Shown: positions 23,378 to 42,914 of the stretch, in pieces
How positions within the stretch are numbered: the first letter of the stretch is position 1
Layout: every line of letters starts with the position of its first letter
DNA from: Arenibacter sp. F20364
GTDB lineage: Bacteria > Bacteroidota > Bacteroidia > Flavobacteriales > Flavobacteriaceae
NCBI RefSeq assembly: GCF_023015905.1
Contig: NZ_JALKBD010000008.1
Coordinates: forward strand, 124,001 to 188,000
Length of the DNA: 64,000 bases
Direction of reading: 5' to 3'
Notes under the pieces: generated by a model
What the model saw: only the letters and a program-made list of their open reading frames with translations
The model's database searches: none
Told to the model about the DNA's origin: nothing
Made by a program: the position numbers and the translations under genes

Positions 23378-23865
23378 TGCACACGACGTATAAAATATTG
23401 AATAGGGCCATTGAGGGATTGTTAGTACTTATATTTAGTTTATTGGTGCTTGATGTGGTTTGGCAGGTGGTCTCCCGGTATGTGGTAGGACAATCTAGCT
23501 CTTTTACGGAGGAATTCGCTAGATTTTCATTGATCTGGTTAACGGTTTTGGGTGCGGCCTATATCAATGGACAAAAGGAAGGTCATCTTTCCATGGATTT
23601 TTTATTGTCAAAGCTCCCCGTGGACAAGCAGAAAAGAAGACACCGGATAATACAGGTGATTATGGCAATTTTCGCCTTGGTCATTATGGTTATTGGTGGA
23701 GGTAATTTAGTCTACACTACTTTAAAGTTAGGGCAGTTATCCCCTGCTTTATTGGTGCCACTTGGCTATGTGTACGCCATTGTGCCTATTTGTGGCCTTA
23801 TGATCATTTTCTTTTCCGTTTATCATATTAAAATAACCTTTAACGCCAACAACGATGAGTATTGA
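23377..23865 (+). CDS. dctQ: TRAP transporter small permease, DctQ family
   Basis: The 162-residue membrane protein has four predicted transmembrane stretches (about 12-32, 50-68, 90-110, 128-150). The VVSRYVVGQSSSFTEEFARFSLIW segment is typical of DctQ. Its start codon overlaps the dctP stop codon (TAATG), and its end overlaps dctM by 11 bp, showing translational coupling. It forms the membrane complex with the large permease DctM and receives substrate from DctP in a sodium-driven uptake. Confidence 0.93.
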   Translation: MHTTYKILNRAIEGLLVLIFSLLVLDVVWQVVSRYVVGQSSSFTEEFARFSLIWLTVLGAAYINGQKEGHLSMDFLLSKLPVDKQKRRHRIIQVIMAIFALVIMVIGGGNLVYTTLKLGQLSPALLVPLGYVYAIVPICGLMIIFFSVYHIKITFNANNDEY

Positions 23866-25190: not shown

Positions 25191-25222
25191 AAGTCCCTAT
25201 TTCATTAATGAAATAGGGACTT
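25191..25222 (+). terminator. Intrinsic terminator after dctM
   Basis: AAGTCCCTATTTCATT is followed directly by its exact complement, so 32 bases form one perfect palindrome, with TTTTGTTT after it. It closes the TRAP operon and separates it from the phosphonate genes. Confidence 0.88.
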
Positions 25223-25485: not shown

Positions 25486-26703
25486 ATGAATATTAACGAC
25501 AGAAATTACCCTAGGCAAAAGCAGACCATTATTGGAATATGTATGGATGGAACCTCTTATCCTTATTACGAAGGCGCCAAGGAGGTAATGCCCAATTTGC
25601 AAAGGTTTATTAAGGAAGGTTCCATGGGAATGGTAAAAAGTGTGATTCCATCCTTTACAAATCCGAACAATATGGCAATTGTTACCGGGGTTACGCCCAA
25701 GGTGAACGGAATTTGCGGGAATTTTTATTGGGATACCGAGCTTCAGGAAGAGGTAATGATGAACGACCCTAAGTATCTGAAGGTGCCAACCATTTTATCA
25801 GAGTTAAGTAAAAACGGTAGAAAAGTGGCTGTGGTGACCGCCAAGGATAAGTTGCGCAAAATGTTGGCCCACAATTTGGATGGTATCTGCTTTTCGGCAG
25901 AATTTGCCAATCAGGCCACTATGGAGGAAAACGGGATTGAAAACGTAGAGCAAGGATTAATGGGCAAGGAAAGACCAGGTATCTATGATCCCTATATTTC
26001 AGTGTACTGTATAGAGGCCGGTGCCAAATTGTTAAAGCGCGAACATTTTGATGTTATGTATTTAACAACAACCGATTTTGTGCAGCATAAATATGCTCCC
26101 GGAAGTCCGGATGCAAACGATTTCTTGTCAAAAATAGACCTTTGGCTAGGGGAACTGGACAAGTTGGGAGCTATTATCGGTGTAACCGCCGATCACGGTA
26201 TGCAGGCCAAGACCAATCTAGATGGCAGTCCAAAAGTGCAGTTTATAGAACAACTTTTGGACGCCCAAAATATTAAATCGAGGGTTATTTTACCTATTAC
26301 GGATCCTTATGTAGTACATCACGGTGCCTTGGGAGGTTATGGTACCTTGTATTTGGAAGATAAATCCCAGTTGCAGGCGGCCAAGGACTATTTGTTGTCC
26401 CTGGACGGAATAGAAAAGGTACTTACCAATGCCGAAGCCGTTGAAGAATATGAACTTCCCGGCGATAGAATTGGAGACTTGGTGGTATTGGCAGATTCGG
26501 CGACCACTATTGGTAGGACCCCTGATTGGCATGAGTTGGATAAAGTGAAGGAAGGTTTAAGATCTCATGGCGGGGAACACTGTCAAGAGGTGCCTATGAT
26601 ATTCAATAAGAAGCTAAACGCTGAATACAGTGCTAAATTAGCGTCTGGGGCCAGTAGGAATTTTGACCTGTTCCATTTCTTGAGTAACGGATTCTCCAAC
26701 TAA
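25486..26703 (+). CDS. phnA: Phosphonoacetate hydrolase
   Basis: The 405-residue protein is a zinc-dependent alkaline-phosphatase-superfamily enzyme of the PhnA type. Visible residues are Asp21 in CMDGT, the nucleophile Thr58 in SFTNPNN, the DFVQHKYAPGSPDAN metal site, ADHGM, and GGEHCQEVP near the C-terminus. It cleaves phosphonoacetate to acetate and phosphate in the cytoplasm and is the last step of the PhnW-PhnY-PhnA route. It is the first gene of the cluster, 18 bp before phnY, and no leader is present. Length agrees with known PhnA proteins. A 263 bp gap after the previous terminator should hold its promoter, but I found no convincing -7 box. Confidence 0.93.
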   Translation: MNINDRNYPRQKQTIIGICMDGTSYPYYEGAKEVMPNLQRFIKEGSMGMVKSVIPSFTNPNNMAIVTGVTPKVNGICGNFYWDTELQEEVMMNDPKYLKVPTILSELSKNGRKVAVVTAKDKLRKMLAHNLDGICFSAEFANQATMEENGIENVEQGLMGKERPGIYDPYISVYCIEAGAKLLKREHFDVMYLTTTDFVQHKYAPGSPDANDFLSKIDLWLGELDKLGAIIGVTADHGMQAKTNLDGSPKVQFIEQLLDAQNIKSRVILPITDPYVVHHGALGGYGTLYLEDKSQLQAAKDYLLSLDGIEKVLTNAEAVEEYELPGDRIGDLVVLADSATTIGRTPDWHELDKVKEGLRSHGGEHCQEVPMIFNKKLNAEYSAKLASGASRNFDLFHFLSNGFSN

Positions 26704-26721
26704 ACCCTTTAAAGCAATACT

Positions 26722-28149
26722 ATGATAGAATTTGGAAATATAGTTAATGGAAAGCAAGTAGTTAGCGGGGAATGGATAGATATTTATAATCCATATACCA
26801 AAAAACAGGTAGGTAGAGTGTCATCCATGGATACAAAAACCTTGGACAAGGTGTTGACGGATACCAAGAATACTAAAATTAACCTTACCAGGTATGAACG
26901 TTATGATATCTTGAATAAGATAGCAAATGCCTTGGAAGAGCGCGTGGATGAGGTAAGTAAAATGATTACCGATGAGACCGGACTTTGTTTAAAGGATACC
27001 CGTTATGAAGCAAGTAGGGTTTCGGATGTGCTGCGATTTTCTGCCATGAAGGCTTTGGATGACGACTCCCAAGTGTTTCCCTGCGATGTTTCTAAAAATG
27101 GGAAACCTAGAAGAATCTATACTACACGTGTTCCCTTGGGACTTATAAGTTGTATTACCCCTTTCAATCACCCTATGAACCAAGTGGTGCACAAAATAGC
27201 TCCGGCTATTGCCACCAATAATACGGTGGTTCTGAAGCCGTCAGAAAAAACCCCTTTATCGGCTTATTATTTTGCTCAATTGGCGCTGGATTGTGGCTTA
27301 CCGCCAAATATGTTGAATGTTATTAATGGAGCCGATGTTCAGGCAACGGCAGAGATGATGACTGTTCATCCGGAAATTACCATGGTCTCCTTTACGGGAG
27401 GTAGTAGGGTGGGAAAAATTATTGCATCCAAAGCTGGTTATAAGAAGTTGGTTTTGGAGCTAGGGGGCAGTTCAGCATTGTTGGTACTTGAGGACGCAGA
27501 TATAGATGAGGCCGTGGAAGTAACCATGTCCGGAACTTTTAAAAATTCCGCTCAGCGCTGTACCGCGATCAGAAGGATTTTGGTACACGAAAGCATCGCT
27601 GATGACTATGCAGCTAAATTGGCGATTCGAGTAAAGGCCTTGAAATATGGGGATCCCTATAATGCCGAAAACGATATGGGTACCGTTATTACGGAGGAAT
27701 CTGCCATGGAAATGGAATCGCGTGTCCAAGATGCTATTGATAATGGAGCAATATTATTGGCAGGACATAAGCGTGATGGAGCCCTTTACGCCCCTACCGT
27801 TTTGGATCATGTGCAAAATGCCCACGAAGTGGTAGCCAAAGAGACCTTTGGCCCAGTAGCCCCTATCATTCGCTTTAAAACCTTGGATGAGGCAATAGAA
27901 ATAGCCAATGATACCCCATATGGCCTGTCTGGTGGAGTAGTGAGCAATCACTGGCCGTCCATACAAAGGGTTATCACGGAATTGGATACGGGTACCGTTA
28001 ATGTGAACGAGGCGCCGAGTTACCGATTGGAATGGACACCCTTTGGTGGGGTAAAAGATTCTGGCCTAGGGTATAAGGAAGGAGTCATTGAGACCATGAA
28101 AGGGTATACCTATATAAAAACCTATTCCTTGCCTTGGGATATAGCCTAA
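26722..28149 (+). CDS. phnY: Phosphonoacetaldehyde dehydrogenase
   Basis: The 475-residue protein is an aldehyde dehydrogenase of the PhnY type. The general base is probably Glu246 in LELGGS, the nucleophile is Cys280 in NSAQRCTAIRR, and the cofactor region SFTGGSRVGK is near 223-232. It oxidises phosphonoacetaldehyde to phosphonoacetate with NAD+. Its place between phnA (18 bp) and phnW (65 bp) supports this specific assignment over a general aldehyde dehydrogenase. No phosphonatase (PhnX) is present, so the island uses the oxidative phosphonoacetate branch. Confidence 0.93.
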   Translation: MIEFGNIVNGKQVVSGEWIDIYNPYTKKQVGRVSSMDTKTLDKVLTDTKNTKINLTRYERYDILNKIANALEERVDEVSKMITDETGLCLKDTRYEASRVSDVLRFSAMKALDDDSQVFPCDVSKNGKPRRIYTTRVPLGLISCITPFNHPMNQVVHKIAPAIATNNTVVLKPSEKTPLSAYYFAQLALDCGLPPNMLNVINGADVQATAEMMTVHPEITMVSFTGGSRVGKIIASKAGYKKLVLELGGSSALLVLEDADIDEAVEVTMSGTFKNSAQRCTAIRRILVHESIADDYAAKLAIRVKALKYGDPYNAENDMGTVITEESAMEMESRVQDAIDNGAILLAGHKRDGALYAPTVLDHVQNAHEVVAKETFGPVAPIIRFKTLDEAIEIANDTPYGLSGGVVSNHWPSIQRVITELDTGTVNVNEAPSYRLEWTPFGGVKDSGLGYKEGVIETMKGYTYIKTYSLPWDIA

Positions 28150-28214
28150 GGAGGTCTTTTGAATTTTCAATAATTATTTGAGTTAGTCAAAATTTTAATC
28201 GAAAAAAATAATAC

Positions 28215-29327
28215 ATGCAAATAAAAAGAAATGTGTTGCTCAATCCTGGTCCGGCAACCACTACAGATACTGTTAAATTGGCCCAAGCGGTTACCGATAT
28301 TTGTCCGCGAGAAAAAGAGTTTGGCGACCTTATGGAATACTGCGCCACCGAGATCACCAAATTTGTGGGCGACCCTAAGGAGTATGCCACTGTTTTTTTC
28401 GGGGGTTCCGGGACAGCCACAGTAGAGGCCATCTTAAGCTCTGTAGTGCCAGAAGATGGACGTATCCTTATCATAGATAATGGAGCCTATGGCAAGCGCA
28501 TGTGCCAGATTACCAAAATATATAAGATTGATACCGTAGTTTTTGAATCCTCTTCCATTGAGCCAATAGATTTAAAGGCCTTAGAGGAGGTGATAAAAGC
28601 AGAAAAAGGATTGACCCATTTGGCAGTGATCCATCACGAAACCACTACTGGTCTCCTAAATGATATTACTGCAGTAGGAGAATTATGTTCCACCTACAAT
28701 ATAAGTTTTATAGTGGATTCTATGAGCGGATTTGCAGCTATACCCGTAGATATGAAGGCCATGAATATTGATTATTTGGCAGCAAGTTCCAATAAGAATA
28801 TTCAGGGAATGGCAGGAATAGGGTTTGCTATATGTAATAAGAAGGCTTTGATTGCAACAGAAGCCATCCCCATGAGGAACCTGTATTTAAATCTATATGC
28901 GCAGTATGCCTATTTTGAAAAAACCCATCAGACAAGGTTTACGCCTCCAGTACAAACGTTTTATGCCTTAAAACAGGCCATTATTGAAACTAAGGAGGAA
29001 ACTATTGAAAAACGATATGCCAGATATTCCAAATCTTGGGAGACCTTATTGGAAGGAATTTCGGAAATGGGATTGGAATATTTAATAGATAGGGAATATC
29101 ATTCCAAAATTATAACCTCCATCATTGAGCCAAAGAGCGATCAATATGATTTTGAGGAAATGCACGATTTTTTCTTTGAAAGAGGTTTTACCATCTATCC
29201 AGGTAAGGTTAATAATTATGATACTTTCCGGATATCCAATATAGGACAGATTGACTACACGGATATTCAAGATTTCCTGAAAGTTTTAAAGGAGTACTTA
29301 ACCAAAATAGGATTTTTAAAAGTATAA
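28215..29327 (+). CDS. phnW: 2-aminoethylphosphonate-pyruvate transaminase
   Basis: The 370-residue PLP enzyme starts MQIKRNVLLNPGPATTT, the typical PhnW N-terminus. The PLP-binding Lys194 is in ASSNKNIQG, and Asp168 in FIVDSMSG contacts the pyridine ring. FFGGSGTATVEA gives the phosphate-cup region. It transfers the amino group of 2-aminoethylphosphonate to pyruvate, making phosphonoacetaldehyde and alanine. Together with PhnY and PhnA it completes a pathway from 2-aminoethylphosphonate to acetate and phosphate. The order phnA-phnY-phnW places the first step last in the operon. Confidence 0.95.
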   Translation: MQIKRNVLLNPGPATTTDTVKLAQAVTDICPREKEFGDLMEYCATEITKFVGDPKEYATVFFGGSGTATVEAILSSVVPEDGRILIIDNGAYGKRMCQITKIYKIDTVVFESSSIEPIDLKALEEVIKAEKGLTHLAVIHHETTTGLLNDITAVGELCSTYNISFIVDSMSGFAAIPVDMKAMNIDYLAASSNKNIQGMAGIGFAICNKKALIATEAIPMRNLYLNLYAQYAYFEKTHQTRFTPPVQTFYALKQAIIETKEETIEKRYARYSKSWETLLEGISEMGLEYLIDREYHSKIITSIIEPKSDQYDFEEMHDFFFERGFTIYPGKVNNYDTFRISNIGQIDYTDIQDFLKVLKEYLTKIGFLKV

Positions 29328-29328
29328 C

Positions 29329-29460
29329 CTCGATTAGCGAGATCCCTGAATTATTAATTGTTAAGGTAGTTTGTGATTAATTAATATGTTTTGTCCGTTT
29401 TTGCCTGCTTATCCGCGGGCATTCGGGCGCTGTTCGGAATATAAGGGTCGAGGTTGAAGC
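29329..29460. repeat. Degenerate intergenic repeat, copy A
   Basis: CTCGATTAGCGAG at 29329-29341 is a near-palindrome, one base different from the perfect sequences at 35243 and 60032. GC-rich stems follow near 29408-29430 (GCCTGC and GCGGGC). The stretch lies directly after phnW and differs in base composition from its AT-rich surroundings. It appears to be a decayed copy of a dispersed repeat. Confidence 0.4.
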
Positions 29461-29529
29461 CTCCCTAAAACAGGCTTTCTTTTGATTTGTCTTTAAATTT
29501 TAAGTACTGCCAACCAATAAAATCTAAGA

Positions 29530-30792
29530 ATGAGTTTAACCGTAGATCAAAAATATTGGAGGAAGAGAATATTTGTTCTTACTTGGCTCGCCTATGCCGG
29601 GTTTTATTTTGGAAGGAAGAACTTATCGGTCACCTGGAGTTCCATGGAGGCGGATTTGGGGCTGGACAACTCTGACTACGCATCCATTATTTTTGTATAT
29701 AGTTTGATATATACCATCGGACAATTTGTTAATGGGTACCTATCCGATACTTTTGGACCTAGAAAGGTGGTTACAGTGGGGTTGTTTCTCGCTGCCATTG
29801 GAAACTTATTTCTTGGAATGACCTTTTCTGCAGGAGTGATTATATTCTTAATAGCCTTGAACGGATATGGTCAATCTACCGGTTGGAGCGGCTTAATAAA
29901 GAATATGACCCCATGGTTTAAACGGACGGAACGTGGTATAGTTATGTCGTGGTGGTCTACCTGTTATGTTACGGGCGGTTTTCTAGCTACCATCTTTGCC
30001 ACTTATGCCGCTTTCGATATGGAGTTCTTGTCGGATCTGGGTTGGAAAAGGGGTTTTATTTTTCCATCGCTGATTCTATTTATTATAGCCATTCTCTATC
30101 TCTTATTTACTAGGAACAATCCAGAAGACGTTGGGATTCCCAAAATTGTAGAGAATAAGTACGAATTTGAAGGAGGGGCAAAGGCAGAGAAACTTAAAAT
30201 TTTAGGCCTGTTATTACGCAATAGTTCGCTTTGGATCTATTCCAGTTGCTATATGATCCTTAAAATGACCAGATATGCCTTTCTTTTTTGGTTACCGGTG
30301 TATTTGGAAAAGGCTTTGCATTATGGTGTCAGTGATGCAGGATATATGTCTTCGGTATATGAGCTGATCGGCTTTTTTGGGGTTATTCTGGCAGGCTATA
30401 GTTCAGACAAAATTTTTAAATCGAATCGTTTTAGTACGGTTTCCTTAATGATGTTGGGACTGGGCCTTGCCTGCTTGGCCCATCCCTTTATGGTTCCCTA
30501 CGGAAAAATAGCGACTATCATCAGTATAGCCCTTATAGGAATTGCCACTTACGGCCCTGATTCCCTTATATGCACTGCTGGATCTATGGATGTGGGCGGT
30601 ACCAAAGGAGCGGCCATGGCAGCCGGTATCATCAATGGAATGGGGTCTGTTGGACAAATGTTCTCTGGTTTTATTGTGGTTGCCATTAACGAGTATTTCG
30701 GATGGAATAATCTTTTTTATTTTTTCGTTATCATGTCCTTCATCGGCGGGGGTTTAGCGGCCATGAAGTGGAACCTTAAAAGCACAGATTAA
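29530..30792 (+). CDS. MFS transporter, GlpT/OPA (organophosphate antiporter) family
   Basis: The 420-residue protein has about 12 transmembrane segments. GFYFGRKNLSVTW near residues 19-31 is the OPA signature with the conserved Arg, and GYLSDTFGPRKVV is the major-facilitator loop motif. The family exchanges organophosphates such as glycerol-3-phosphate for phosphate. Position right after phnW suggests uptake of 2-aminoethylphosphonate or a phosphonate ester. It is clearly different in sequence from the two near-duplicate transporters that follow. Transport specificity is inferred from context only. Confidence 0.88.
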   Translation: MSLTVDQKYWRKRIFVLTWLAYAGFYFGRKNLSVTWSSMEADLGLDNSDYASIIFVYSLIYTIGQFVNGYLSDTFGPRKVVTVGLFLAAIGNLFLGMTFSAGVIIFLIALNGYGQSTGWSGLIKNMTPWFKRTERGIVMSWWSTCYVTGGFLATIFATYAAFDMEFLSDLGWKRGFIFPSLILFIIAILYLLFTRNNPEDVGIPKIVENKYEFEGGAKAEKLKILGLLLRNSSLWIYSSCYMILKMTRYAFLFWLPVYLEKALHYGVSDAGYMSSVYELIGFFGVILAGYSSDKIFKSNRFSTVSLMMLGLGLACLAHPFMVPYGKIATIISIALIGIATYGPDSLICTAGSMDVGGTKGAAMAAGIINGMGSVGQMFSGFIVVAINEYFGWNNLFYFFVIMSFIGGGLAAMKWNLKSTD

Positions 30793-30894
30793 CCGTTGTT
30801 AGTTCTTATATTGAACCTGAAGAATTGCCTTTTTAAACGAGGTATTTCTAAAGCGTCGATTTTATGTTTGGAATCTTATTTTTTATCAAATTTA

Positions 30895-31146
30895 ATGACT
30901 GGAGAGAACTTCATTCAGGCCAGGTTTCCGGTTTTTAAGGATGCTTGGAAATTTTTAATGTTTATAGAAAAGGAATTTTCTTTAGGCTTAAATGCTAGCG
31001 AAATAATGACCGCGATACTATCGTCCAAGATTGGAGTGTTTGGCAACCTTGTGGGGCAGTCCATTTATTTTGAGGAAGGTGTGGAGTTGTGGCCTGAGCC
31101 TAAAAATCACATGGCGTTCAGGGTCTCATTAAATTTTCAAAACTAA
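30895..31146 (+). CDS. Small hypothetical protein between two transporters
   Basis: From ATG 30895 there are 83 codons ending 31144-31146, directly before the next transporter start. An upstream TTG at 30796 in the same frame would add 33 residues with an unlikely composition. I recognise no domain. The sequence has hydrophobic stretches but no signal peptide or clear transmembrane helix, and ends in AFRVSLNFQN. It may be a real small gene, a remnant, or a chance frame. Its only support is tight spacing to the following gene. Confidence 0.3.
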   Translation: MTGENFIQARFPVFKDAWKFLMFIEKEFSLGLNASEIMTAILSSKIGVFGNLVGQSIYFEEGVELWPEPKNHMAFRVSLNFQN

Positions 31147-32391
31147 ATGGATTCCAGGACCAACTATAGTTCACAATTTCGAAAATACCAATGGAAAATG
31201 CTCTTTACAGCAATGTTCTGCTACCTCTTTTATTACACGGGCAGACAGAATTTTGGATGGGCCATTCAGGGTATGGCACTCGAATTTAATGTTACTAAGC
31301 AGCAAATAGGTTGGGCCGGAGCGGCATTGCTTTGGGCATATGGAATAGGACAGTTTATAAATGGCAATTTGGCCGACAAGTATGGCGCACGGAAGATGAT
31401 GGCCATTGGTGGCCTTCTTTCCGTTTTCTTGAACTGGGGGATAAGTTTTGTAACCGCCTATTGGATGATTGTGATTTTTTGGGCTTTTAACGGATTTGCC
31501 CAATCATTGGGCTGGGCACCTGGGAGCCGCTTAATTGCTAATTGGTGGGGAGGTAAGGAAAGAGGCAAGGCTTTTGGGTTTTATGTTTTTGCCGCTGGAT
31601 GTTCTTCGATCCTAATTTATCTATTGTCCATAATTATCCTTCATGTATATGAACTGGATTGGCAATGGCTTTTTAGATTACCGGTCTTATTACTTCTTTT
31701 AGGCTGTGTCATTTTCTATTTTATAGCGAGGGATAAACCGGAGGATGCTGGGTTTAACCCCATAAAGGAGGATGCTGCATCCGTTGGTCCCCAAGTCATG
31801 GAAAGATCTATAGACCGCTACAAAAATGTTTTGGGGAATAGGAAGTTTATTCTGGCGTGTATCTCCATTGGTTTTCAAAATATGGCCCGTTATGGACTTC
31901 TGGTGTGGGTACCGCTGTATTATTTGGGCAGTAAATTACAAGATTCCTCAAATTTATGGATTGCCTTAGCGCTACCGGTGGGAATGGCCTTGGGGGCGAT
32001 TTTCTTTGGACAACTATCCGATAGGGTCTTTAGATCAAATCGATCAAAACCTATAGCCATATCCATGGGTTTGGCTGGCCTGGTGATTTTGATGATATAT
32101 CTGGTTCCAAAAGAAAGTGTATTGGGTGGATTGATTCTATTGTTTGCAGCAGGATTTTTAGTGTACGGTCCGCGATCCTGTTTTTGGCCCTTAAGCCCGG
32201 ATTTATTGGGTGTTAAAAGGTCTGGCACGGGAGTGGGGGTTATGAACGCTTTTGCCTCCGTTTTTGCAGGTGCAGGGGAGCCATTTATAGGGTATATGGT
32301 AGACGCAACTAGGCAACAAAATATAGTTTTTGTGGTAACTGCGGTGATGTGCTTTTGTAGCGCTATAATAGTATTATTTGTGAGGCGTTGA
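31147..32391 (+). CDS. MFS transporter, GlpT/OPA family (first of two near-duplicates)
   Basis: The 414-residue protein has about 12 transmembrane segments with the motif FYYTGRQNFGWAIQG at residues 26-40, which corresponds to the OPA signature, and GNLADKYGARKMMAIGG as the loop motif. It is very similar along its full length to the protein encoded at 33812-35056, which has exactly the same length. Its likely substrates are organophosphates or phosphonates. It begins right after a small hypothetical frame. After it comes 329 bp without a gene, so it may end a transcript. Confidence 0.88.
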   Translation: MDSRTNYSSQFRKYQWKMLFTAMFCYLFYYTGRQNFGWAIQGMALEFNVTKQQIGWAGAALLWAYGIGQFINGNLADKYGARKMMAIGGLLSVFLNWGISFVTAYWMIVIFWAFNGFAQSLGWAPGSRLIANWWGGKERGKAFGFYVFAAGCSSILIYLLSIIILHVYELDWQWLFRLPVLLLLLGCVIFYFIARDKPEDAGFNPIKEDAASVGPQVMERSIDRYKNVLGNRKFILACISIGFQNMARYGLLVWVPLYYLGSKLQDSSNLWIALALPVGMALGAIFFGQLSDRVFRSNRSKPIAISMGLAGLVILMIYLVPKESVLGGLILLFAAGFLVYGPRSCFWPLSPDLLGVKRSGTGVGVMNAFASVFAGAGEPFIGYMVDATRQQNIVFVVTAVMCFCSAIIVLFVRR

Positions 32392-32720
32392 ATCTTATTT
32401 TGGGACATGGGCTATCGGTTTTTTTTTGCCAATATCCAAGAAGGTTTAGATCGGAAAAAGAAATATTGTACCATGGAAAAGTACAGAATTGTATTGGTGA
32501 CATTATGAATTAAAGCGACTGGAAAATCTAAGGTCTCAATAATTCAATGGTTTATTTTTTTACCATTTAATAATATATGGGATTAGGCCAATACTGGGCA
32601 ATTGGCTTTATTGTGTTCCTAATAACCAGAGTGTTTGAAATTGATAATTGACAAAATGATCATTTTAAAAAATTATAATAACAAAATTGCTGACGCATAT
32701 GATAATGCTAGATGTAAAAA
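32392..32720 (+). other. Intergenic region between transporter and alcohol dehydrogenase
   Basis: No gene was found in this AT-rich stretch. A short hairpin, GCCAAT/ATTGGC with an 8-base loop, lies at 32587-32606, followed by TTTATTGTG; it could be a weak terminator. The 3' part should contain the promoter of the alcohol dehydrogenase gene. Confidence 0.4.
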
Positions 32721-32723
32721 TTG

Positions 32724-33815
32724 ATGTATCCAATGCAGGAAGATAAGCTAATAAAAACTGAATTTCAGATTTTTGAGGAGGCCGGAAAGTCCTTTAATTA
32801 CGAAGAAAAAGAAATCGAATTAAACCTCAATTCCGGTGAAGTTTTGGTCAAGGTACTTTTATCTACCATATGCGGCTCGGACCTACATACCATTGAAGGG
32901 AAAAGAAAAGAGGATGTTCCGTGTATTCTCGGTCATGAGGCAGTTGGTGAAATAATCCGCATTAATGACAGGAAAGGTTTTGAAATTGGGGATAGGGTAA
33001 CCTGGACCATTGCGGATAGTTGCGGGAAATGTGCTGCATGTACTGATTATGGACTACCGGAAAAATGCCATGAACTTTTTAAGTATGGCCACGCATCCAT
33101 CAACAAGGGTAGTGGCTTAAATGGCTGTTATTCCAACATCATCCATATTAGACGGGGTACACATTTGGTGAAGGTTCCGGAGGTCGTCAGCAACCCTATG
33201 GCGGCACCTGCCAATTGCGCCCTTGCAACAATGGTAAATGCTGTGTCCCAATTAAAAAAAGTACCCAAAAAAGTAGTAGTTCAGGGAGGGGGGCTTCTAG
33301 GGGTCTATGCCTGTGCACTTTTAGAGGAAATGGGCGTTAGCGAGATATATTGTTCGGATATCAATTTGGATCGTTTTGACATTATTGGAAAATTTGGAGC
33401 AGTCCCTGTCGATGGCCGGGATATGCAAAAGGCAACCGCGTTTTTGTTGGACAGGCTTGGAGATGGAGCGGATGCCATAATTGAGGTTGCCGGAGTCAAG
33501 GAATTGATTCCCCAAGGAATAAGTTTGTTAAGGCCGGGTGGGGAATACGTCCTTGTCGGGTTGGTACATCCAGATTCTGAATTGAACATCACGGCAGAGC
33601 AAATTATTAGAAAATGCCTTACCGTAAGGGGTGTTCATAATTATGCCCCTTGGCATTTGGAAGAAGCTATTGACTTTTTGGAACGAAACCATAGGAACTT
33701 CCCTTTTGGTGAACTTGTGAGTCCGCCCTTTAACTTGGAAAATTTGGAAGAGGCCGTAATGGAGGCAAAAAAACAACATTGGTTTAGGGTCTCGGTAAAA
33801 CCAAAACATAAATGA
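32724..33815 (+). CDS. Zinc-binding alcohol dehydrogenase, phosphonate-catabolism-associated type
   Basis: The 363-residue protein (ATG at 32724; a TTG lies just upstream, another ATG at 32733) is a medium-chain dehydrogenase. Catalytic zinc ligands are visible in ICGSDLH and LGHEAVGE. Structural-zinc-type cysteines are in DSCGKCAACTDYGLPEKC. The nucleotide loop is VQGGGLLGVYA. It resembles the family described as putative phosphonate-catabolism-associated alcohol dehydrogenase, consistent with the neighbours. Its stop codon overlaps the start of the next transporter (ATGA). It could oxidise a hydroxy-phosphonate or an alcohol released from a phosphonate ester; this is not established. Confidence 0.85.
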   Translation: MYPMQEDKLIKTEFQIFEEAGKSFNYEEKEIELNLNSGEVLVKVLLSTICGSDLHTIEGKRKEDVPCILGHEAVGEIIRINDRKGFEIGDRVTWTIADSCGKCAACTDYGLPEKCHELFKYGHASINKGSGLNGCYSNIIHIRRGTHLVKVPEVVSNPMAAPANCALATMVNAVSQLKKVPKKVVVQGGGLLGVYACALLEEMGVSEIYCSDINLDRFDIIGKFGAVPVDGRDMQKATAFLLDRLGDGADAIIEVAGVKELIPQGISLLRPGGEYVLVGLVHPDSELNITAEQIIRKCLTVRGVHNYAPWHLEEAIDFLERNHRNFPFGELVSPPFNLENLEEAVMEAKKQHWFRVSVKPKHK

Positions 33816-35056
33816 ATCCTATAGAAAATACAAATCAAAATTTTCGAAGGCACCAATGGAAAATGTTGTTTGCAGTTATGTTCTGCTACCTATTTTACTA
33901 TACCGGCAGACAGAATTTCGGTTGGGCCATTCAAGGTATAGCCCTTGAATTTAATGTAGCGAAACAATATATTGGCTGGGCTGGTGCCGCCATGCTTTGG
34001 GCTTATGGAATAGGACAATTTATTAACGGTAATTTGGCCGATAAGTTTGGTGCACGCCGGATGATGGTGATAGGTGGCGTCCTTTCGGTACTTATGAACT
34101 GGGCTACAAGTTTTGCAACCGCCTATTGGATGATCGTAGTATTCTGGGCCTTGAATGGCTTTTCACAATCATTGGGCTGGGCTCCAGGGAGCCGCATGGT
34201 AGCCAATTGGTGGGGTGGGAAGGAGAGAGGAAAAGCTTTTGGTTTTTACGTGTTTGCAGCTGGGTGCTCCTCGGTACTCATTTATTTGTTGTCCATAATA
34301 ATGTTGGACATTTATGGAGTGGATTGGCGGTGGCTTTTTAGATTGCCGGTATTGTTACTTCTTTTGGGCTGTGGTGTTTTTTATTTCGTGGTTAGGGATA
34401 AACCGGAAGATGCTGGTTTTAAACCCGTGAAAGGTGACACGGCCTTTGTTTTGCCCAAAGAAAATGAAAGCTCTTTGGAACGGTACAAAAAGGTTCTTTG
34501 TAACAAAAAATTCATATTGGCATGTATCTCTATTGGCTTTCAAAATATGGCAAGATACGGGCTTCTGGTATGGGTGCCGCTTTATTATTTGGGAACAAAA
34601 TTAAATGAAAACGCCAATTTATGGATTGCTTTGGCCCTTCCAGTGGGGATGGCCTTGGGCACTATTTTTTTTGGACAATTATCGGATAGGGTCTTTAATT
34701 CCAATAGGTCCAGACCTATAGCGCTTTCAATGGGTTTGGCAGGTGTGGTCATATTAATGGTTTATCTGGTGCCCAAAGAAAATTTACTTGGGGGTTTAGT
34801 GCTAATGTTTGCGGCCGGATTTTTGGTATATGGCCCACAATCCTGTTATTGGCCCCTGAGTCCGGATTTGTTGGGAGTTAAAAGGTCGGGTACGGGAGTA
34901 GGGGTTATGAACACCTTTGCCTATGCCTTTGCAGGGGCAGGTGAGCCCTTTATAGGATATATGATAGATGTTACTGGAGAACAAAATATAGTTTTTGTGG
35001 TAACTGCCGTGATGTGTTTTTTTAGTGCTCTGATAATATTATTTGTGAGGCGCTGA
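33812..35056 (+). CDS. MFS transporter, GlpT/OPA family (second of two near-duplicates)
   Basis: The 414-residue protein is a paralogue of that at 31147-32391, with the same length and identical residues at most positions by eye. The OPA motif FYYTGRQNFGWAIQG and GNLADKFGARRMMVIGG are present. Differences cluster in the central loop (about residues 205-225) and the N-terminus. The gene overlaps the alcohol dehydrogenase gene by 4 bp, so the two are translationally coupled, in contrast to the first copy. This suggests the transporter imports the substrate of the dehydrogenase or exports its product. Confidence 0.88.
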   Translation: MNPIENTNQNFRRHQWKMLFAVMFCYLFYYTGRQNFGWAIQGIALEFNVAKQYIGWAGAAMLWAYGIGQFINGNLADKFGARRMMVIGGVLSVLMNWATSFATAYWMIVVFWALNGFSQSLGWAPGSRMVANWWGGKERGKAFGFYVFAAGCSSVLIYLLSIIMLDIYGVDWRWLFRLPVLLLLLGCGVFYFVVRDKPEDAGFKPVKGDTAFVLPKENESSLERYKKVLCNKKFILACISIGFQNMARYGLLVWVPLYYLGTKLNENANLWIALALPVGMALGTIFFGQLSDRVFNSNRSRPIALSMGLAGVVILMVYLVPKENLLGGLVLMFAAGFLVYGPQSCYWPLSPDLLGVKRSGTGVGVMNTFAYAFAGAGEPFIGYMIDVTGEQNIVFVVTAVMCFFSALIILFVRR

Positions 35057-35149
35057 TATAAAAATTTTAATGCCTTATATCAATTGAAGTCAGGGAATAA
35101 TTATCGATTTAAGTCTTTTGCCCCAGGGCAAGCCCTTGAGGCATCAGAA

Positions 35150-35260
35150 GGAGACTACTAATAACATTTCGATGCCCACCTGAATGGAACGGGCAGGCCC
35201 GCCTAAATGGATTCGGGCAAGCAAGCGTCGGAGCATTTTAATCTCGATTATCGAGTTAAA
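35150..35260. repeat. Degenerate intergenic repeat, copy B
   Basis: CTCGATTATCGAG at 35243-35255 is a near-perfect palindrome. It is preceded by a GC-rich stretch with a CGGGC-AG-GCCCG hairpin near 35189-35201. The same two parts appear, in inverse orientation, at about 60024-60128. The region lies between the second near-duplicate transporter and the phosphodiesterase-like gene. Confidence 0.45.
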
Positions 35261-35271
35261 TAATATAGAAG

Positions 35272-36213
35272 ATGATAAGGAAACAAAATTTGATCATTTA
35301 TTGGAGTTTTATTTGGTTGTTGGGCAGCTGTAATACTTCAAAAGTAGCTCTAGAAAATAGGGTTCTTACAAAACGCGTTGTTGCCATTGGCTTGGACGGT
35401 ATAAGTGTGGATGGCTATAAAGCAGCAAAACACCCAAATATGGATGCGCTTATGGCAGACGGGGTACTGTCCTTGACCACCAGAAATGTTATGCCCTCGG
35501 TGACCCTGCCCAATTGGACTTCCCACCTTACTGGAAGCGGTCCGGAACAGCATGGTGTATTAAGTAATGGGTGGACAAAAGAAAAAGTGATTTTACCAAG
35601 TATTGATAATGATGATGACGGATATTATCCTTCCATTTTTAAAATATTGAAAGAAGCTATTCCAGACGTAAAGACAGCCTTCTATTACAATTGGGCCGAA
35701 TTGATCAATTCGTTCAACCCTCACTATATCGATGAATTAAGTTTTGAAGGGAATGATGAATACCAAAATAATTATGGAAAGGCTTTCGATTTTATCGTTG
35801 ATAACAAGTCGGATCCTATCATGGTTTTTCTTTACTCTGTACATACGGATCATGCTGGACATAATCATGGTTGGATGTCCCCGGAATATATTACGTCTAT
35901 AGAAGAGGCAGATGTGCATATTGGAAAGTTTATACAGAAACTTAAGGATGAAGGTCTCTACGGGGATACACATTTTATGTTCTTCACAGACCATGGCGGT
36001 GTACCCGAAAAAGGTCATGGGGGTGTAACCCGTCAGGAATTGGAAGTGCCATGGGCCATAACTGGCCCTGGAATAAGAAAGGGGGAAATGTTAACGGAAC
36101 CTAATAATTCTGTTAATACGGCTATGACCATATCTTATCTGTTTGGCTGTAAAAATATTCCTCTTTCTTGGACGGGAGAGGTGCCGATGACCATTTTTGA
36201 AACCAAGGAATAG
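35272..36213 (+). CDS. Alkaline-phosphatase-superfamily phosphodiesterase, lipoprotein
   Basis: The 313-residue protein carries a lipobox-type leader (LLGSC, Cys20). The fold is of the nucleotide pyrophosphatase/phosphodiesterase (NPP) type: Asp42 in GLDGIS, the nucleophile Thr78 in SVTLPNWTSHLTG, DHAGHNHGW as the metal site, and FTDHGG plus KGHGG later. It should hydrolyse phosphate or phosphonate mono- or diesters outside the cytoplasm. NPP relatives include enzymes that remove choline head groups from lipids. In this island it may free phosphonate head groups for import, which is inference. It follows the repeat copy B. Confidence 0.85.
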   Translation: MIRKQNLIIYWSFIWLLGSCNTSKVALENRVLTKRVVAIGLDGISVDGYKAAKHPNMDALMADGVLSLTTRNVMPSVTLPNWTSHLTGSGPEQHGVLSNGWTKEKVILPSIDNDDDGYYPSIFKILKEAIPDVKTAFYYNWAELINSFNPHYIDELSFEGNDEYQNNYGKAFDFIVDNKSDPIMVFLYSVHTDHAGHNHGWMSPEYITSIEEADVHIGKFIQKLKDEGLYGDTHFMFFTDHGGVPEKGHGGVTRQELEVPWAITGPGIRKGEMLTEPNNSVNTAMTISYLFGCKNIPLSWTGEVPMTIFETKE

Positions 36214-36298
36214 TTGGTAGGTCCTAAGGTAAGGAAAGGAATTTTAATAAAAAGGGACAGAGGTAATTCGACAAAAGCAGTGGGGATTATATTGGAAA

Positions 36299-37534
36299 AT
36301 GAAGAATAAGTCAATGAAAACGACAGATCTGGTAATAATCGGAGGGGGTATATTTGGTTGTGCCATTGCTTATTACTACAGCAAAAATAATCCAGAAAAA
36401 AGAGTAATACTTTTAGAGCGCAATGAACTTAACAACGCCGCTACGAGTAGGGCAGCTGCACTTATGACCATGGTACGTTCCAAGCGTTCTTATATTCCGC
36501 TTACAATGGAGACCTTTAAGGTGGCCAAGGAAATGGAGCAGGAACTAGGGGAATCACTCGACTTCAAAGTAGTTGGTATGATGCATGTGGCGGCCAGTGA
36601 AGCCACGGTGAAGGACCTGGAAGAACTTATGGTGATCGCAAAGGAATACGATCAGCAAGCTTATTTTGTCACTAAGGAAGAAGCTAAAATCAAAGCCCCT
36701 TGGTTAAAGGTGGACGAGGCCCTGAAAATAGGGTTTGTGCCCAATGAAGCATATTGCGACCCTTATATGTTAGGGACATTTTTTGCGAGATGCGCAAAAA
36801 ATAGAGGTGTCGGGATTCGGCAGGGGGTAGAAGTTATTGGATTGATCCATGAGGGTGGAAATGTAAAAGGTGTAAAGACAAGGGAAGGAGAAATATATGC
36901 AGAAACTGTGGTGGACGCAGCAGGTGTTTGGGCTCCGATATTTGCCATGGAAATGGGAGTTGGTTTGCCTATGGCCCCAGTAAGGAGTCAATATTGGATC
37001 ACCGAACGCGCTGATATTTTCCCCTTGGATTCCCCCATGGTCCTATTGCCGGATGCCCAGGCCTATGTTCGCCCGGAAGGAGGGGGGTTGCTTTTTGGGA
37101 TACGTGAGAAGAAATCATTGGTGACTTCCCCTAAAATGGTGCCTAAGGATATAACGGATTTCGTTTTTAGTGCCGATGAAGGGATGAATGATCTATTTGA
37201 AAATGGAGAGCGACTTGCCCGTTTTTTTCCTGCTTTTTATGATATAGGAATAAAATACTATATAGCGGGATTTTCTGGCTACACCCCGGATTCCCAATTA
37301 ATATTGGGGCCTGTGCCCGGGACAACGGGATTTTTGGTGGCCTCAGGGTGTTGTGGTGCAGGGATTTCCGTTGCAGGCGGGGTAGGGCTCGGCATTGCTG
37401 AAATAGCAGCTGGAAGGCCAAACCCCCTCGATTTTTCGGAATTTGAAATTTCCAGATTTGGCAGAATAGATCCCTTTGGGGAAGAATGGCTGAACAAGTG
37501 TGCCGCTGCCAGATCCAATAAGGTAAGTGGTTAA
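36299..37534 (+). CDS. FAD-dependent oxidoreductase, DAO/glycine-oxidase type
   Basis: The 411-residue protein has an N-terminal FAD loop (VIIGGGIFGCAIAYYY) and the DAO pattern with TSRAAALMTM near 50, VVDAAGVWAP near 205, and IAGFSGYTPDSQLILGP near the C-terminus. It oxidises amines or amino acids to imines with release of peroxide. DAO-type enzymes are known in phosphonate clusters, where some act on N-methylated 2-aminoethylphosphonate. The same role is attractive here, as the product would enter PhnY or PhnW. Substrate is not proved. An internal ATG at 36314 is an alternative start. Confidence 0.83.
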   Translation: MKNKSMKTTDLVIIGGGIFGCAIAYYYSKNNPEKRVILLERNELNNAATSRAAALMTMVRSKRSYIPLTMETFKVAKEMEQELGESLDFKVVGMMHVAASEATVKDLEELMVIAKEYDQQAYFVTKEEAKIKAPWLKVDEALKIGFVPNEAYCDPYMLGTFFARCAKNRGVGIRQGVEVIGLIHEGGNVKGVKTREGEIYAETVVDAAGVWAPIFAMEMGVGLPMAPVRSQYWITERADIFPLDSPMVLLPDAQAYVRPEGGGLLFGIREKKSLVTSPKMVPKDITDFVFSADEGMNDLFENGERLARFFPAFYDIGIKYYIAGFSGYTPDSQLILGPVPGTTGFLVASGCCGAGISVAGGVGLGIAEIAAGRPNPLDFSEFEISRFGRIDPFGEEWLNKCAAARSNKVSG

Positions 37535-37553
37535 ACAATCAAGAAAGAATATA

Positions 37554-38558
37554 ATGCAAAATCAAGAAAAAGGACGTCGTAATTTTATGGCCAAGATGGG
37601 ATTGGGAACCTTGGCAATGGGATTGGGGAATGTTGGGGCTTACGCCTTTGCACCTAAAAATGAAATCATCAAAAAAAATAAGGTCAATATTGGTTTTATA
37701 ACCGATGTCCATCACGGCTTTTGTACAGACGGTCTTGAGCGTTTGCAGGTCTTTATAAAGGAGGCATCTTCCCGAAAATTGGATTTTATTATTCAGGGAG
37801 GGGATTTTTGCTTTGCAACGAAAGAAGCCCAGGAGTGTATGGATCTTTGGAACACCTACAAGGGTGAAAAATATCATGTGCTGGGGAACCATGATATGGA
37901 CAAGGTTACCAAGAAGGAAGCCATGGATTTTTTCGGGATGGAGAGTAATTATTATTCCTTTGATAAGGGCGACTTTCATTTTGTGGTAATGGATGGAAAT
38001 TATATACTGAAAGATGGGAAATATGAGGATTATGGCAATGCCAATTTTTATATTGATCAACAGAACAGAAGCTTGGTAAACCCAGAACAAATTGAATGGT
38101 TGAAGCAGGATTTGGAAAAAACGGATAAACAGACGATAATATTTTCCCATCAGGCTTTTGACGAAATTTGGGACGGTTGGTCCTCTCCCAGTAGGTTTGA
38201 GGTTAGGAAAGTGATCAACGATGCCAATAATAGAACGGATTTCCAAAAAGTTATTGCCTGTTTTTGTGGGCACCATCACGTGGACGATCACAGTTATATT
38301 AATAACGTCCATTATTTTCAAATGAACAGTGCTTCCTATTTTTATGTCGGAGAAGGCTATGGTTCCGATGGTAGTAGGGCCATGTACGAGGATTCTATTT
38401 TTGCTTTTTTAACCCTGGATCCCAGTGGTAAAATTTCAATTGAAGGACGCAAAAGTCAATTCGTACGTCCAACCCCAATGGAAAAAGGCCACCCCGATGC
38501 GCCAAGACTTTCCGCATCGATTAGTGATAGGAGTATTGGCTTTAGGAAGAAAGTATAA
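37554..38558 (+). CDS. Metallophosphoesterase with Tat-type leader
   Basis: ATG at 37554 is chosen over GTG 37527 because it gives a twin-arginine leader (GRRNFMAKMGLGTLAMGLG). The calcineurin-like fold is clear: ITDVHHG, GGDFCF, GNHDMDK, FSHQAF and GHHHVDDH supply the two-metal site. Tat export suggests the metals are loaded in the cytoplasm before transport to the periplasm. The enzyme should hydrolyse a phosphomonoester or diester. It is 19 bp after the FAD enzyme and 32 bp before the EEP-family gene, so the three are likely one operon. It could act on glycerophospho- or glycerophosphono-diesters. Confidence 0.85.
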   Translation: MQNQEKGRRNFMAKMGLGTLAMGLGNVGAYAFAPKNEIIKKNKVNIGFITDVHHGFCTDGLERLQVFIKEASSRKLDFIIQGGDFCFATKEAQECMDLWNTYKGEKYHVLGNHDMDKVTKKEAMDFFGMESNYYSFDKGDFHFVVMDGNYILKDGKYEDYGNANFYIDQQNRSLVNPEQIEWLKQDLEKTDKQTIIFSHQAFDEIWDGWSSPSRFEVRKVINDANNRTDFQKVIACFCGHHHVDDHSYINNVHYFQMNSASYFYVGEGYGSDGSRAMYEDSIFAFLTLDPSGKISIEGRKSQFVRPTPMEKGHPDAPRLSASISDRSIGFRKKV

Positions 38559-38590
38559 AATGAGATCAAATTATAAAATCAGAAACTTAA

Positions 38591-40285
38591 ATGAATCAAA
38601 TTTCTTGTAAGTCGGTCCAAAGTTCAGGGATATTAATGTATAATTATAAATTAAAGCCCTTGGCGCACTGCCCTAGAGGGCTATATGGTAAAATTGTTAA
38701 GTTTGCTCCCATTCTTATCATTTTCCTGATCGGCCATTTGGCAATATCGCAACAACCAGTTCTTCAAATGGATTTTGATGACAATGGCTTTGAGGAAAAA
38801 ATCATTTCTAAAAACGATGCGATTTACATGGTAGATCTTCAGCAGTCTCAATTTGCAGAGGGGTTGTCCGGCTATGCTCTTGATCTTTCAGCAAACGCCT
38901 CATTGAGGAGACCTGTAAAATTGAATAAAGACAGTTTTCCTGTACTTACCGAACAATCGTCCTTTAGTGTTCAAATCTGGGTAAAAACCTTGGCCAAGGC
39001 CAAAATGGGGGCCGTTATTGCTGGAAATAAAAATACCGATGAGCTTTCTAGCATGGGTTGGCAAATATATACCCAGGAGAATGGAGCCTGGGCCTTAAAT
39101 CTCAGCGATGGGAAGAATAGATATGACTATAGGCCCACTCCGGAAAGACAAAGAATTAACGATGGACGTTGGCATCAGATTTTAATTAGTATCGATCGTG
39201 ATAAAGATGAGCTTTGGGTGTATTTTGATGGCAAGAACGTGGCCATATATAATATGCCGGAGCTAAAAGGATTGGAGTCCGAATTGGCTACAGTTATCGG
39301 AGGTTCCGATGAAAAATGGGAATATGGGTCCTATGGACAATGGAATGCCTTCAATGGCTTTTTAGATGAAATAAAGGCATGGGATACGACAATTGACTCT
39401 GAAATCGCTAAAGAATTGTATGACCAATATCGACAAACTGCTGAAACGACCCAAACAAACTTAGATGCCCAACATATTAAAGTAATGACCTGGAATATTT
39501 GGCACGGAGGGCATAGATATGGCAAAGAGGTAGGAGTACAACGGGTCATCGAAACCATTAAGGCTACCAATGCGGATATTGTTGGACTAATAGAAACTTA
39601 TGGCTCCGGGGAAATAATTGCTGATTCCTTGGGCTATTACTTTTATCTGATAAGTTCCAACTTATCTATAATGAGTCGTTATCCTATTACTGAAACCATT
39701 AAAATTTTTAAGCCATTTAATTTTGGTGGGGTTAAATTAAATATGGGCACTTCCAAAGAATTGATCTTTTTTGATACCTGGCTGCATTATTTGCCTGATT
39801 ATAGCAAAAGCATTATAACAGAGAACAAAAGTCCAAAAGACTTGATAGCGGATGAGAAAAATACACGCCACGGTGAAATAAAGGAAATTTTAAAAAGTAT
39901 AACACCGTATCTAAAAAATACAGCTGAAACCCCTGTAATTATGGTAGGCGATTTTAATATGGGGTCACATCTTGATTGGATAAAGGAAACCAAGGATCTC
40001 CATTGTGGAAAGGTAGTGGAATGGCCAGAGAGTAAGGAAATGTACCTTGCCGGATTTAAAGATAGTTATCGTGAATTGCACATTAATCCTTTACTGGATC
40101 CCGGGTTTACATGGACTCCAAGAGCCGCCACCTCTTCGGACAAATACGGACTAAGGGATAGAATCGACTATATTTATTATAAAGGAAAAGGTTTGAACGT
40201 TTTGGAATCCAAAGTAATCGATTACCACCCAGTTATGTTCCCTTCGGATCACGCAGCTGTTTTTAGTGTTTTTCAATTGAATTAA
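38591..40285 (+). CDS. Exported LamG plus endonuclease/exonuclease/phosphatase domain protein
   Basis: The 564-residue protein has a leader (FAPILIIFLIGHLAIS, mature start near QQP). Residues about 60-275 are a LamG/concanavalin-like domain (SFSVQIWVKT, DGRWHQILISIDRDKDELWVYFDG). Residues about 297-560 form an EEP hydrolase: MTWNIWHGG, GLIETYGSG, MVGDFNMGSHLDW, GFTWTPR and PSDHAAVFS. EEP hydrolases include neutral sphingomyelinases and nucleases. With a LamG binding domain and the phosphonate genes, a lipid phosphodiesterase role is plausible. Start is uncertain: 38591 or the ATG at 38636. Another possibility is an extracellular nuclease. Confidence 0.8.
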   Translation: MNQISCKSVQSSGILMYNYKLKPLAHCPRGLYGKIVKFAPILIIFLIGHLAISQQPVLQMDFDDNGFEEKIISKNDAIYMVDLQQSQFAEGLSGYALDLSANASLRRPVKLNKDSFPVLTEQSSFSVQIWVKTLAKAKMGAVIAGNKNTDELSSMGWQIYTQENGAWALNLSDGKNRYDYRPTPERQRINDGRWHQILISIDRDKDELWVYFDGKNVAIYNMPELKGLESELATVIGGSDEKWEYGSYGQWNAFNGFLDEIKAWDTTIDSEIAKELYDQYRQTAETTQTNLDAQHIKVMTWNIWHGGHRYGKEVGVQRVIETIKATNADIVGLIETYGSGEIIADSLGYYFYLISSNLSIMSRYPITETIKIFKPFNFGGVKLNMGTSKELIFFDTWLHYLPDYSKSIITENKSPKDLIADEKNTRHGEIKEILKSITPYLKNTAETPVIMVGDFNMGSHLDWIKETKDLHCGKVVEWPESKEMYLAGFKDSYRELHINPLLDPGFTWTPRAATSSDKYGLRDRIDYIYYKGKGLNVLESKVIDYHPVMFPSDHAAVFSVFQLN

Positions 40286-40354
40286 TTGTCTATTTTTGCT
40301 ATATTAAATGTCATTGTGGCAAATTGATGCCTGCAAATGACCAATAGTAGCTAA

Positions 40355-40912
40355 ATGGATGACATTCTAATAAACATAGGTAGGCAATTAAAATTGGCCC
40401 GCCAGAAGAGGGATTTGACCTTGCAACAGGTGGCAAAAAGAACTGGTGTTAGCGCTGGGCTTATTTCTAAAATTGAAAATTTAAGAACCACGCCATCTTT
40501 ACCAGTGCTATTAAAAATAATGCAGACGCTTAGTATAGATCTGTCCGAGCTGGACCTATCGTCCAATGTTACTGGAGATTACATCGTAATCAAAAATGGA
40601 ACAGGGATAAAGGAAGACAGGGAAGATTCCGTTAATCTTGAGTATACGCACCTACTATCTACTCCTTCTTCCGATAGTAGTATTAGGGTTTACATTGTTA
40701 GTGTTGCTGCTGGTGCTTATCGAAAGCCAATCTCAACCAATGCCAATGAACTCATCTATGTACTTGGTGGTAAGGTTAATTACCTGCTTAAAAAGGACAA
40801 GGTGTTATTGGAAAAAGGAGATCTACTTTATTTTGATGGCTCTATTCCCCATGGCGTTTCCAATGAGTTCAATGAGCAGGCAATTATGTTGAAAATTTAC
40901 TTCCTGCATTAA
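40355..40912 (+). CDS. XRE family regulator with cupin domain
   Basis: The 185-residue protein has an N-terminal XRE helix-turn-helix (LTLQQVAKRTGVSAGLISKIENLRTTPSLPVLLKI, about 21-55) and a C-terminal cupin (YRKPISTNANELIYVLGGKVNYLL, LLYFDGSIPHGVSNEF). HTH-cupin proteins sense small ligands. It sits at the end of the phosphonate island, 69 bp after the EEP-family gene in the same direction, so it could control the island. Its ligand could be a phosphonate or an aminated product; nothing in the sequence fixes it. Confidence 0.9.
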   Translation: MDDILINIGRQLKLARQKRDLTLQQVAKRTGVSAGLISKIENLRTTPSLPVLLKIMQTLSIDLSELDLSSNVTGDYIVIKNGTGIKEDREDSVNLEYTHLLSTPSSDSSIRVYIVSVAAGAYRKPISTNANELIYVLGGKVNYLLKKDKVLLEKGDLLYFDGSIPHGVSNEFNEQAIMLKIYFLH

Positions 40913-42117: not shown

Positions 42118-42118
42118 T

Positions 42119-42889: not shown

Positions 42890-42914
42890 CATAAGCTAAC
42901 GAAAAATTAATCGC

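Follow-up and report, generated by a model that had tools for sequence, protein, structure and literature searches.

The window considered here comprises 64,000 nucleotides of the 5.7 Mb genome of Arenibacter sp. F20364, of the family Flavobacteriaceae, and the element of interest within it is a phosphonate catabolic island between positions 25486 and 40912. Its named genes are all open reading frames of the + strand, in the order phnA, phnY, phnW, OPA1, OPA2, hpnZ, OPA3, NPP, flavin oxidoreductase, metallophosphoesterase, LamG-EEP (a LamG domain joined to an endonuclease/exonuclease/phosphatase fold) and XRE-cupin regulator. The original prediction described PhnW, PhnY and PhnA together with three OPA-type transporters and three exported hydrolases, and proposed that the whole served the scavenging of phosphonolipids. 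The genes are indeed present as described, as judged from open reading frames and family scans, with export read by eye; to them are now added an HpnZ-type zinc alcohol dehydrogenase (32721-33815), a DAO-type flavin oxidoreductase (36299-37534) and the XRE-cupin regulator (40355-40912). The predicted lack of a C-P lyase is borne out, in that PhnJ was found in none of 17 genomes searched, that of the window included. What follows concerns the substrates which the island might serve, and in particular the three genes hpnZ, OPA3 and NPP.

The core of the island is of a familiar kind. PhnA, a phosphonoacetate hydrolase (25486-26703; TIGR02335, 458.8 bits, cut-off 407.55), and PhnW, the aminotransferase of 2-aminoethylphosphonate (AEP; 28215-29327; TIGR03301, 409.4 bits, cut-off 360.8), both score above curated cut-offs within the same cluster, which places these two in the PhnWYA pathway. 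PhnY, a phosphonoacetaldehyde dehydrogenase (26722-28149), lies about 10 bits under the cut-off of TIGR03250 (625.9 against 635.65 bits), yet this is its best family by far, the next scoring 431.9 bits. By family, then, the three enzymes are the known hydrolytic route for AEP, and they are adjacent as in that pathway; the window differs in that its cluster also holds OPA-type permeases and exported hydrolases, three of each. The XRE-cupin protein that ends the island (PF01381 and PF07883) recurs as a putative regulator in 22 of the 24 PhnA loci from Bacteroidota that are compared below.

All three permeases are MFS proteins whose best family is among the TIGR00881/OPA models. The nearest solved structure of both OPA1 (29530-30792) and OPA3, the two that were searched, is GlpT (1pw4), and in alignments both keep the arginines corresponding to Arg45 and Arg269 of GlpT, the phosphate-binding ones of that protein. 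OPA1, present in 21 of the 24 loci, matches AepP, a published OPA-family AEP permease related to GlpT (PMC8316502), and is predicted to transport AEP. The same paper counts Kriegella aquimaris among the bacteria in which AepP accompanies PhnWAY, PhnWX or putative catabolic enzymes, and the single OPA gene of the Kriegella locus, next to PhnWYA as in the window, is the ortholog of OPA1 (81% identical). The use of OPA transporters instead of an ABC transporter, which had been called unusual, is in this light a solution already published (ABC transporters were not searched for genome-wide). As a separate observation, the Kriegella locus (L029) carries, upstream of phnA, SusC/SusD-cluster genes, a LamG-cluster protein, a second NPP-like enzyme and, beside phnA, PbfA (727.3 bits, cut-off 525).

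OPA2 (31147-32391) and OPA3 (33812-35056) are 80% identical to each other and only 26% and 24% identical to OPA1, in other words a separate branch at some 25% identity, which sets them apart from AepP. Between them lies hpnZ, which OPA3 overlaps by 4 bases, so that the two are probably translated together. The best family of the dehydrogenase is TIGR03366, a proposed phosphonate-associated alcohol dehydrogenase whose function is itself unproven (310.7 bits, cut-off 328.1). A Kriegella relative passes the cut-off at 336.6 bits, and in the loci compared the enzyme keeps the company of phosphonate catabolic genes. Residues C51, H72, E73 and C166, the catalytic zinc ligands, are invariant in 13 of 13 aligned sequences.

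The third member of this group, NPP (35272-36213), is an exported phosphodiesterase lipoprotein of the alkaline-phosphatase superfamily, above the Pfam cut-off of PF01663 at 121.4 bits. D42, N81, D193, H197, D240, H241 and H249 are invariant in the 16 sequences aligned, and T78 is kept in all 15 orthologs, differing only in the paralog of the Kriegella locus; together they give a complete active site of NPP type, with a threonine nucleophile and the ligands of two metal ions. Such a threonine is at odds with the Cys or Ser of the formylglycine nucleophile motif which marks phosphonate monoester hydrolase (PMH/PEH), such that the window's protein shares with that enzyme its superfamily and proposed role and is nonetheless an NPP-type enzyme. 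A lipobox can be read by eye in the window's protein and in all but one of the 14 other orthologs, the exception being that of Membranihabitans, which has a signal-peptide-like start instead. The predicted fold has a mean pLDDT of 79.1, with residues 75-80 (the nucleophile) and 91-113 below 50, and it matches sulfatases, nucleotide NPPs and alkaline sphingomyelinase with similar quality; the fold, in other words, does not tell the substrate.

Next in order, the flavin oxidoreductase (PF01266) has dimethylglycine dehydrogenase and sarcosine oxidase as its nearest solved relatives, and genes of at least 35% identity occur in 17 of the 24 loci. Flavin enzymes that recur in AEP clusters oxidise N-methyl-AEP to phosphonoacetaldehyde, and PbfD enzymes make phosphonoacetaldehyde (PMC10590968). 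The window's enzyme shares with PbfB, PbfC and PbfD a DAO fold inside an AEP cluster, but it is not PbfD, scoring 41.8 bits against the TIGR03364 cut-off of 285.1; its substrate is probably N-methyl-AEP.

The remaining two exported proteins are a metallophosphoesterase (37527-38558, the likely start being at about 37554; PF00149) and the LamG-EEP protein (38591-40285; PF13385 and PF03372), all three domains scoring above Pfam cut-offs. Their export signals, again by eye, are a twin arginine with a hydrophobic stretch, resembling a Tat leader, and a hydrophobic stretch, respectively. The metallophosphoesterase has no informative relative among solved structures; a 71% identical ortholog, in a genome without a PhnA match (L095), has an NPP-like gene as neighbour, and no counterpart of the window's phosphonate genes is seen around it. 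For the EEP domain no solved relative was found, either by a search with the domain or by a whole-protein profile, whose only matches, to neurexin and pentraxin chains, fall in the LamG part, and the structure model of the protein is too poor to use (mean pLDDT 46.2). The present evidence does not allow either protein to be named a sphingomyelinase or a nuclease. Among PhnA loci the two as a set occur only in Arenibacter and Kriegella, and in four Arenibacter loci (L019, L021, L056, L058) a 347-348-residue protein of the alkaline-phosphatase superfamily stands 3' of the EEP gene (PF01676, checked on L019).

The comparison of loci rests on a PhnA scan that gave 36 named loci, of which the 24 from Bacteroidota were used for counts; the 12 dropped (L042-L048 and L050-L054) show no NPP, metallophosphoesterase or EEP gene. 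PhnY, PhnW, the regulator and OPA1 were counted at identity thresholds of 45-60%, over at most 10 kb on each side for 19 loci, the other five being extended, and one locus (L040) falls under the thresholds for PhnW (40%), OPA1 (53%) and the regulator (44%) though such genes are present. From the NPP search 28 of 38 matches were set aside as paralogs at 31-39% identity, and from the metallophosphoesterase search 11 of 14 as relatives at 41-46%; the EEP protein was sought in the fetched loci only. On this basis PhnY is found in all 24 loci and PhnW in 22, and OPA1 is frame-shifted in one of its 21. An apparent frame-shift of OPA1 is seen in the locus of Arenibacter sp. F26102 (L024), which also lacks the flavin oxidoreductase and the three exported hydrolases. 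Optional parts are fewer: metallophosphoesterase 11, OPA3 7 (one decayed), and NPP, HpnZ and EEP 6 each. The association of PhnA, PhnY, PhnW, OPA1 and regulator is more than chance, and the cluster consists of this core, usually with the flavin enzyme, and two optional sets, HpnZ-OPA3-NPP and metallophosphoesterase-EEP. PhnA of the window is 94-99% identical to that of the Arenibacter loci found.

Surveys of genomes give a similar picture of hpnZ and NPP as travelling companions. PhnA is uncommon in the family, with a match in 10 of 397 genomes and none in one member of the window's own genus (G373). Orthologs of HpnZ-a (E 1e-90) occur in 3 of the 397, each of which also has PhnA (hypergeometric 1.2e-5; 4.6e-4 when the genome of the window is left out), and orthologs of NPP (E 1e-70) in 8, only 3 of which have PhnA. 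HpnZ of any type, identified by TIGR03366, was found in 5 of 164 genomes, a sample which we assume, from those handles that were listed, to consist of the first 164 genomes among the 397; four of these five have an NPP ortholog (hypergeometric 2.2e-5 without the own genome). Seen from the other side, 15 NPP orthologs, six from Arenibacter with the window included and nine others, have HpnZ within about 20 kb in 11 cases and some phosphonate gene in 12. HpnZ in turn has OPA3 or DUF5690 for company in 13 of 14 loci, all but L096. DUF5690 is described here simply as a membrane protein, with some 11 hydrophobic segments.

The linkage extends to clusters of another background. Of the five genomes that have NPP but no PhnA match, three (L090, L093, L094) have it with PbfD, a PhnX-like hydrolase, two relatives of the XRE-cupin regulator, DUF5690 and a second type of HpnZ; PbfD passes the TIGR03364 cut-off in all three, and the hydrolase passes that of TIGR03351 in L090, the one scanned, the other two being 76% and 74% identical to it. 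L109 (G098), the fifth of the genomes with HpnZ, holds a compact cluster of a 958-residue exported-type protein, PbfD, PhnX-like hydrolase, HpnZ, two XRE-cupin relatives and DUF5690, in which no NPP ortholog was found. A Maribacter SusC/D pair has been reported as highly expressed beside an alkaline phosphatase, a flavin oxidoreductase and a phosphonatase-like hydrolase (PMC11345257), a set which resembles the L090-type cluster by names only. In Membranihabitans maritimus (L038) the order is phnA, phnY, hpnZ, decayed OPA3, DUF5690 and NPP, the OPA3 relative (13789-15036) having nine in-frame stops and the DUF5690 gene after it being open, so that DUF5690 looks like a replacement for OPA3 as permease; searches of this genome for PhnW (E 1e-40) and for relatives of the window's flavin enzyme (E 1e-20) gave no match. 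As a side observation, IS256-type transposase genes lie near the NPP orthologs of L090 and L092, possibly a trace of gene movement.

In relatives, therefore, dehydrogenase, OPA3 and exported NPP behave as a module, also in clusters which have PbfD and a PhnX-like enzyme instead of PhnA. The family name of the latter implies, though it does not prove, that it consumes phosphonoacetaldehyde. HpnZ is thus found with two unrelated enzyme sets which meet at phosphonoacetaldehyde, and for an alcohol dehydrogenase that makes this compound the substrate must be 2-hydroxyethylphosphonate (HEP); oxidation of HEP is the single role that fits both backgrounds. A role on acetaldehyde would suit the clusters of PhnX type but not those of PhnA, the product of which is acetate. 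HEP oxidation would feed these pathways, and PbfF has been shown not to perform it (PMC12366243); a literature search on HEP catabolism, over the parts of the papers available, turned up no dehydrogenase with this catabolic role. Polysaccharides of marine dissolved organic matter carry HEP and methylphosphonate as esters, and an alkaline-phosphatase-like esterase has been postulated to free them (PMC5649143).

On this evidence the reading which we tentatively prefer, and which falls a little short of probable, is that the island serves the catabolism of aminophosphonates and has added input branches, each leading to phosphonoacetaldehyde, of which the HpnZ-OPA3-NPP branch would be for HEP. PhnW would take in AEP and the flavin oxidoreductase N-methyl-AEP, each giving phosphonoacetaldehyde; the NPP lipoprotein would hydrolyse a P-O-C ester outside the cell, most likely on a glycan, to free HEP, which OPA3 (and OPA2) would import and HpnZ would oxidise to phosphonoacetaldehyde for PhnY and PhnA, with the metallophosphoesterase and LamG-EEP protein as further, optional exported hydrolases. 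Most of the cluster is then of known kind; the exception is the set of three genes, which has the look of a route not yet described for releasing HEP from larger molecules and using it. Regulation and every substrate of the added branches, HEP above all, we infer from what is observed, namely genes, conservation, linkages and the catalytic residues of NPP and HpnZ. The wider proposal, a possible rather than a probable one, is that NPP, a permease (OPA3 or DUF5690) and HpnZ form an undescribed C-P-lyase-free route in marine Bacteroidota, in which NPP would cut HEP, and perhaps other phosphonates, from glycan esters, the permease would import HEP and HpnZ would be the missing catabolic HEP dehydrogenase, feeding PhnY and PhnA or a PhnX-like hydrolase.

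Several observations weigh against an HEP branch of this kind. The score of the window's HpnZ is 17 bits under the curated cut-off of TIGR03366, for all that no other family comes close. Of the 24 PhnA loci 18 lack NPP, and 3 of its 15 orthologs have no phosphonate gene in view. The module is also found incomplete, Arenibacter aquaticus (L039) having OPA3 and NPP without HpnZ, and L096 (G328) and L109 having HpnZ without NPP; in G328, moreover, HpnZ lies about 210 kb from phnA. Membranihabitans is a single case, HpnZ-a being found in 1 of 149 genomes of its order, namely its own, and it has one PbfD on another contig (L103), such that its PhnA and PhnY could obtain phosphonoacetaldehyde without HpnZ; this weakens the assignment of HEP by exclusion, which is no proof. 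That PbfD gene appears to stand alone, three scanned neighbours (3471-4148, 2256-3410 and 10531-11277) giving no NCBIfam match at E 1e-20. Finally, the idea that DUF5690 is a relative of OPA, prompted by a TM1-like motif, was rejected, since profile comparison with OPA3 gave a probability of 1.4% (seven sequences a side) and a search of solved structures came back empty.

The strongest of the alternatives is that the exported hydrolases are phosphodiesterases of an ordinary sort, for phosphate esters or nucleotides, which share a locus for the supply of phosphorus or nitrogen, HpnZ oxidising some other hydroxyphosphonate or the alcohol freed by NPP. Nucleotide NPPs are the closest solved relatives of NPP by sequence, and the metallophosphoesterase, as said, lacks an informative solved relative and has its ortholog in a genome with no PhnA match; the three NPP loci without phosphonate genes in view point the same way. 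What such an account leaves unexplained is the repeated linkage of NPP with HpnZ across different phosphonate backgrounds, and we consider it rather unlikely. The tie between exported hydrolases and phosphonate catabolism, as originally predicted, stands for NPP in 12 of 15 loci and for the metallophosphoesterase in 11 of 24; it does not extend to one conserved set, since a check of the hydrolase genes beside phn genes in related genomes found each in several loci (NPP 6, metallophosphoesterase 11, EEP 6, of 24) and all three together in only three, plus the window.

The phosphonolipid proposal fares less well. In it the exported hydrolases would strip AEP or N-methyl-AEP head groups from the phosphonosphingolipids of marine animals, for use by the permeases and Phn enzymes. 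In its favour, sphingomyelinases belong to the EEP fold family, and the NPP model matches ENPP7, the alkaline sphingomyelinase, at rank 15 among many others; N-methyl-AEP, which fits the flavin oxidoreductase, is recorded from sphingolipids of shellfish and Tetrahymena in the reference list of PMC10590968. Yet the match of the NPP fold is about equally good to sulfatases and nucleotide NPPs, family scans recognised no lipid-degrading family in the window's cluster, and NPP is tied to an alcohol dehydrogenase for which lipids of AEP would have no need. A GDSL esterase adjoins NPP in L090 and L093 and can be read either way. The three NPP orthologs outside phosphonate loci accompany glycan-degrading enzymes: one is beside an alpha-L-fucosidase (L061, where the contig is just 17 kb long), one beside a GH95 enzyme and one beside a PL8 lyase. 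SusD-like genes, moreover, lie near phnA in 13 of the 24 loci (cluster x1, one member checked by Pfam). Glycan genes are common in such genomes, so that even three of three is suggestive only; taken together these neighbours hint at phosphonoglycans rather than phosphonolipids, little points to lipids, and we regard the latter as distinctly improbable. That HpnZ works in reverse, as a relief valve reducing excess phosphonoacetaldehyde to HEP for export, is very improbable indeed: PhpC, a phosphonoacetaldehyde reductase, carries out this reduction in biosynthesis (PMC9381506), but it is related to iron alcohol dehydrogenases, another family, and HpnZ has an exported hydrolase and permeases alongside it, as in an uptake branch.

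Esters of HEP and methylphosphonate on polysaccharides account for up to 20% of the phosphorus in high-molecular-weight marine dissolved organic matter (PMC9381506), and the known C-P lyase route for them releases ethylene and methane (PMC5649143). The HEP branch proposed here would share its substrate with that route and differ in being hydrolytic, with no PhnJ found. If true, bacteria lacking a C-P lyase could, by such a hydrolytic route and the esterase that belongs to it, compete for the phosphorus of HEP, with no gas (ethylene) formed, and a functional guess would be gained for two orphan families, TIGR03366 and DUF5690.

With regard to the limits of the island, the TRAP transporter and uronate genes upstream look like a unit separate from the phn cluster, since a terminator-like stem-loop intervenes (25191-25222, + strand; 14 paired bases, the longest stem listed) and SusC/SusD genes stand between dctM and phnA in four relatives. 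Terminator-like sites are not enriched in the region, 14 being found against 15.6 in shuffles. The TRAP transporter (22376-25165) was considered as a phosphonate importer and rejected, as it adjoins relatives of mannonate dehydratase and mannonate oxidoreductase; the stem-loop before phnA and the SusC/SusD block, several kb long in the four Arenibacter loci (L021, L025, L027, L039), also speak against it. The same block is found in L026, with no dctM in view. On the 3' side of the cluster lie genes read by eye as proC, proB and proA (41311-44117), which occupy the same place in other Arenibacter loci.

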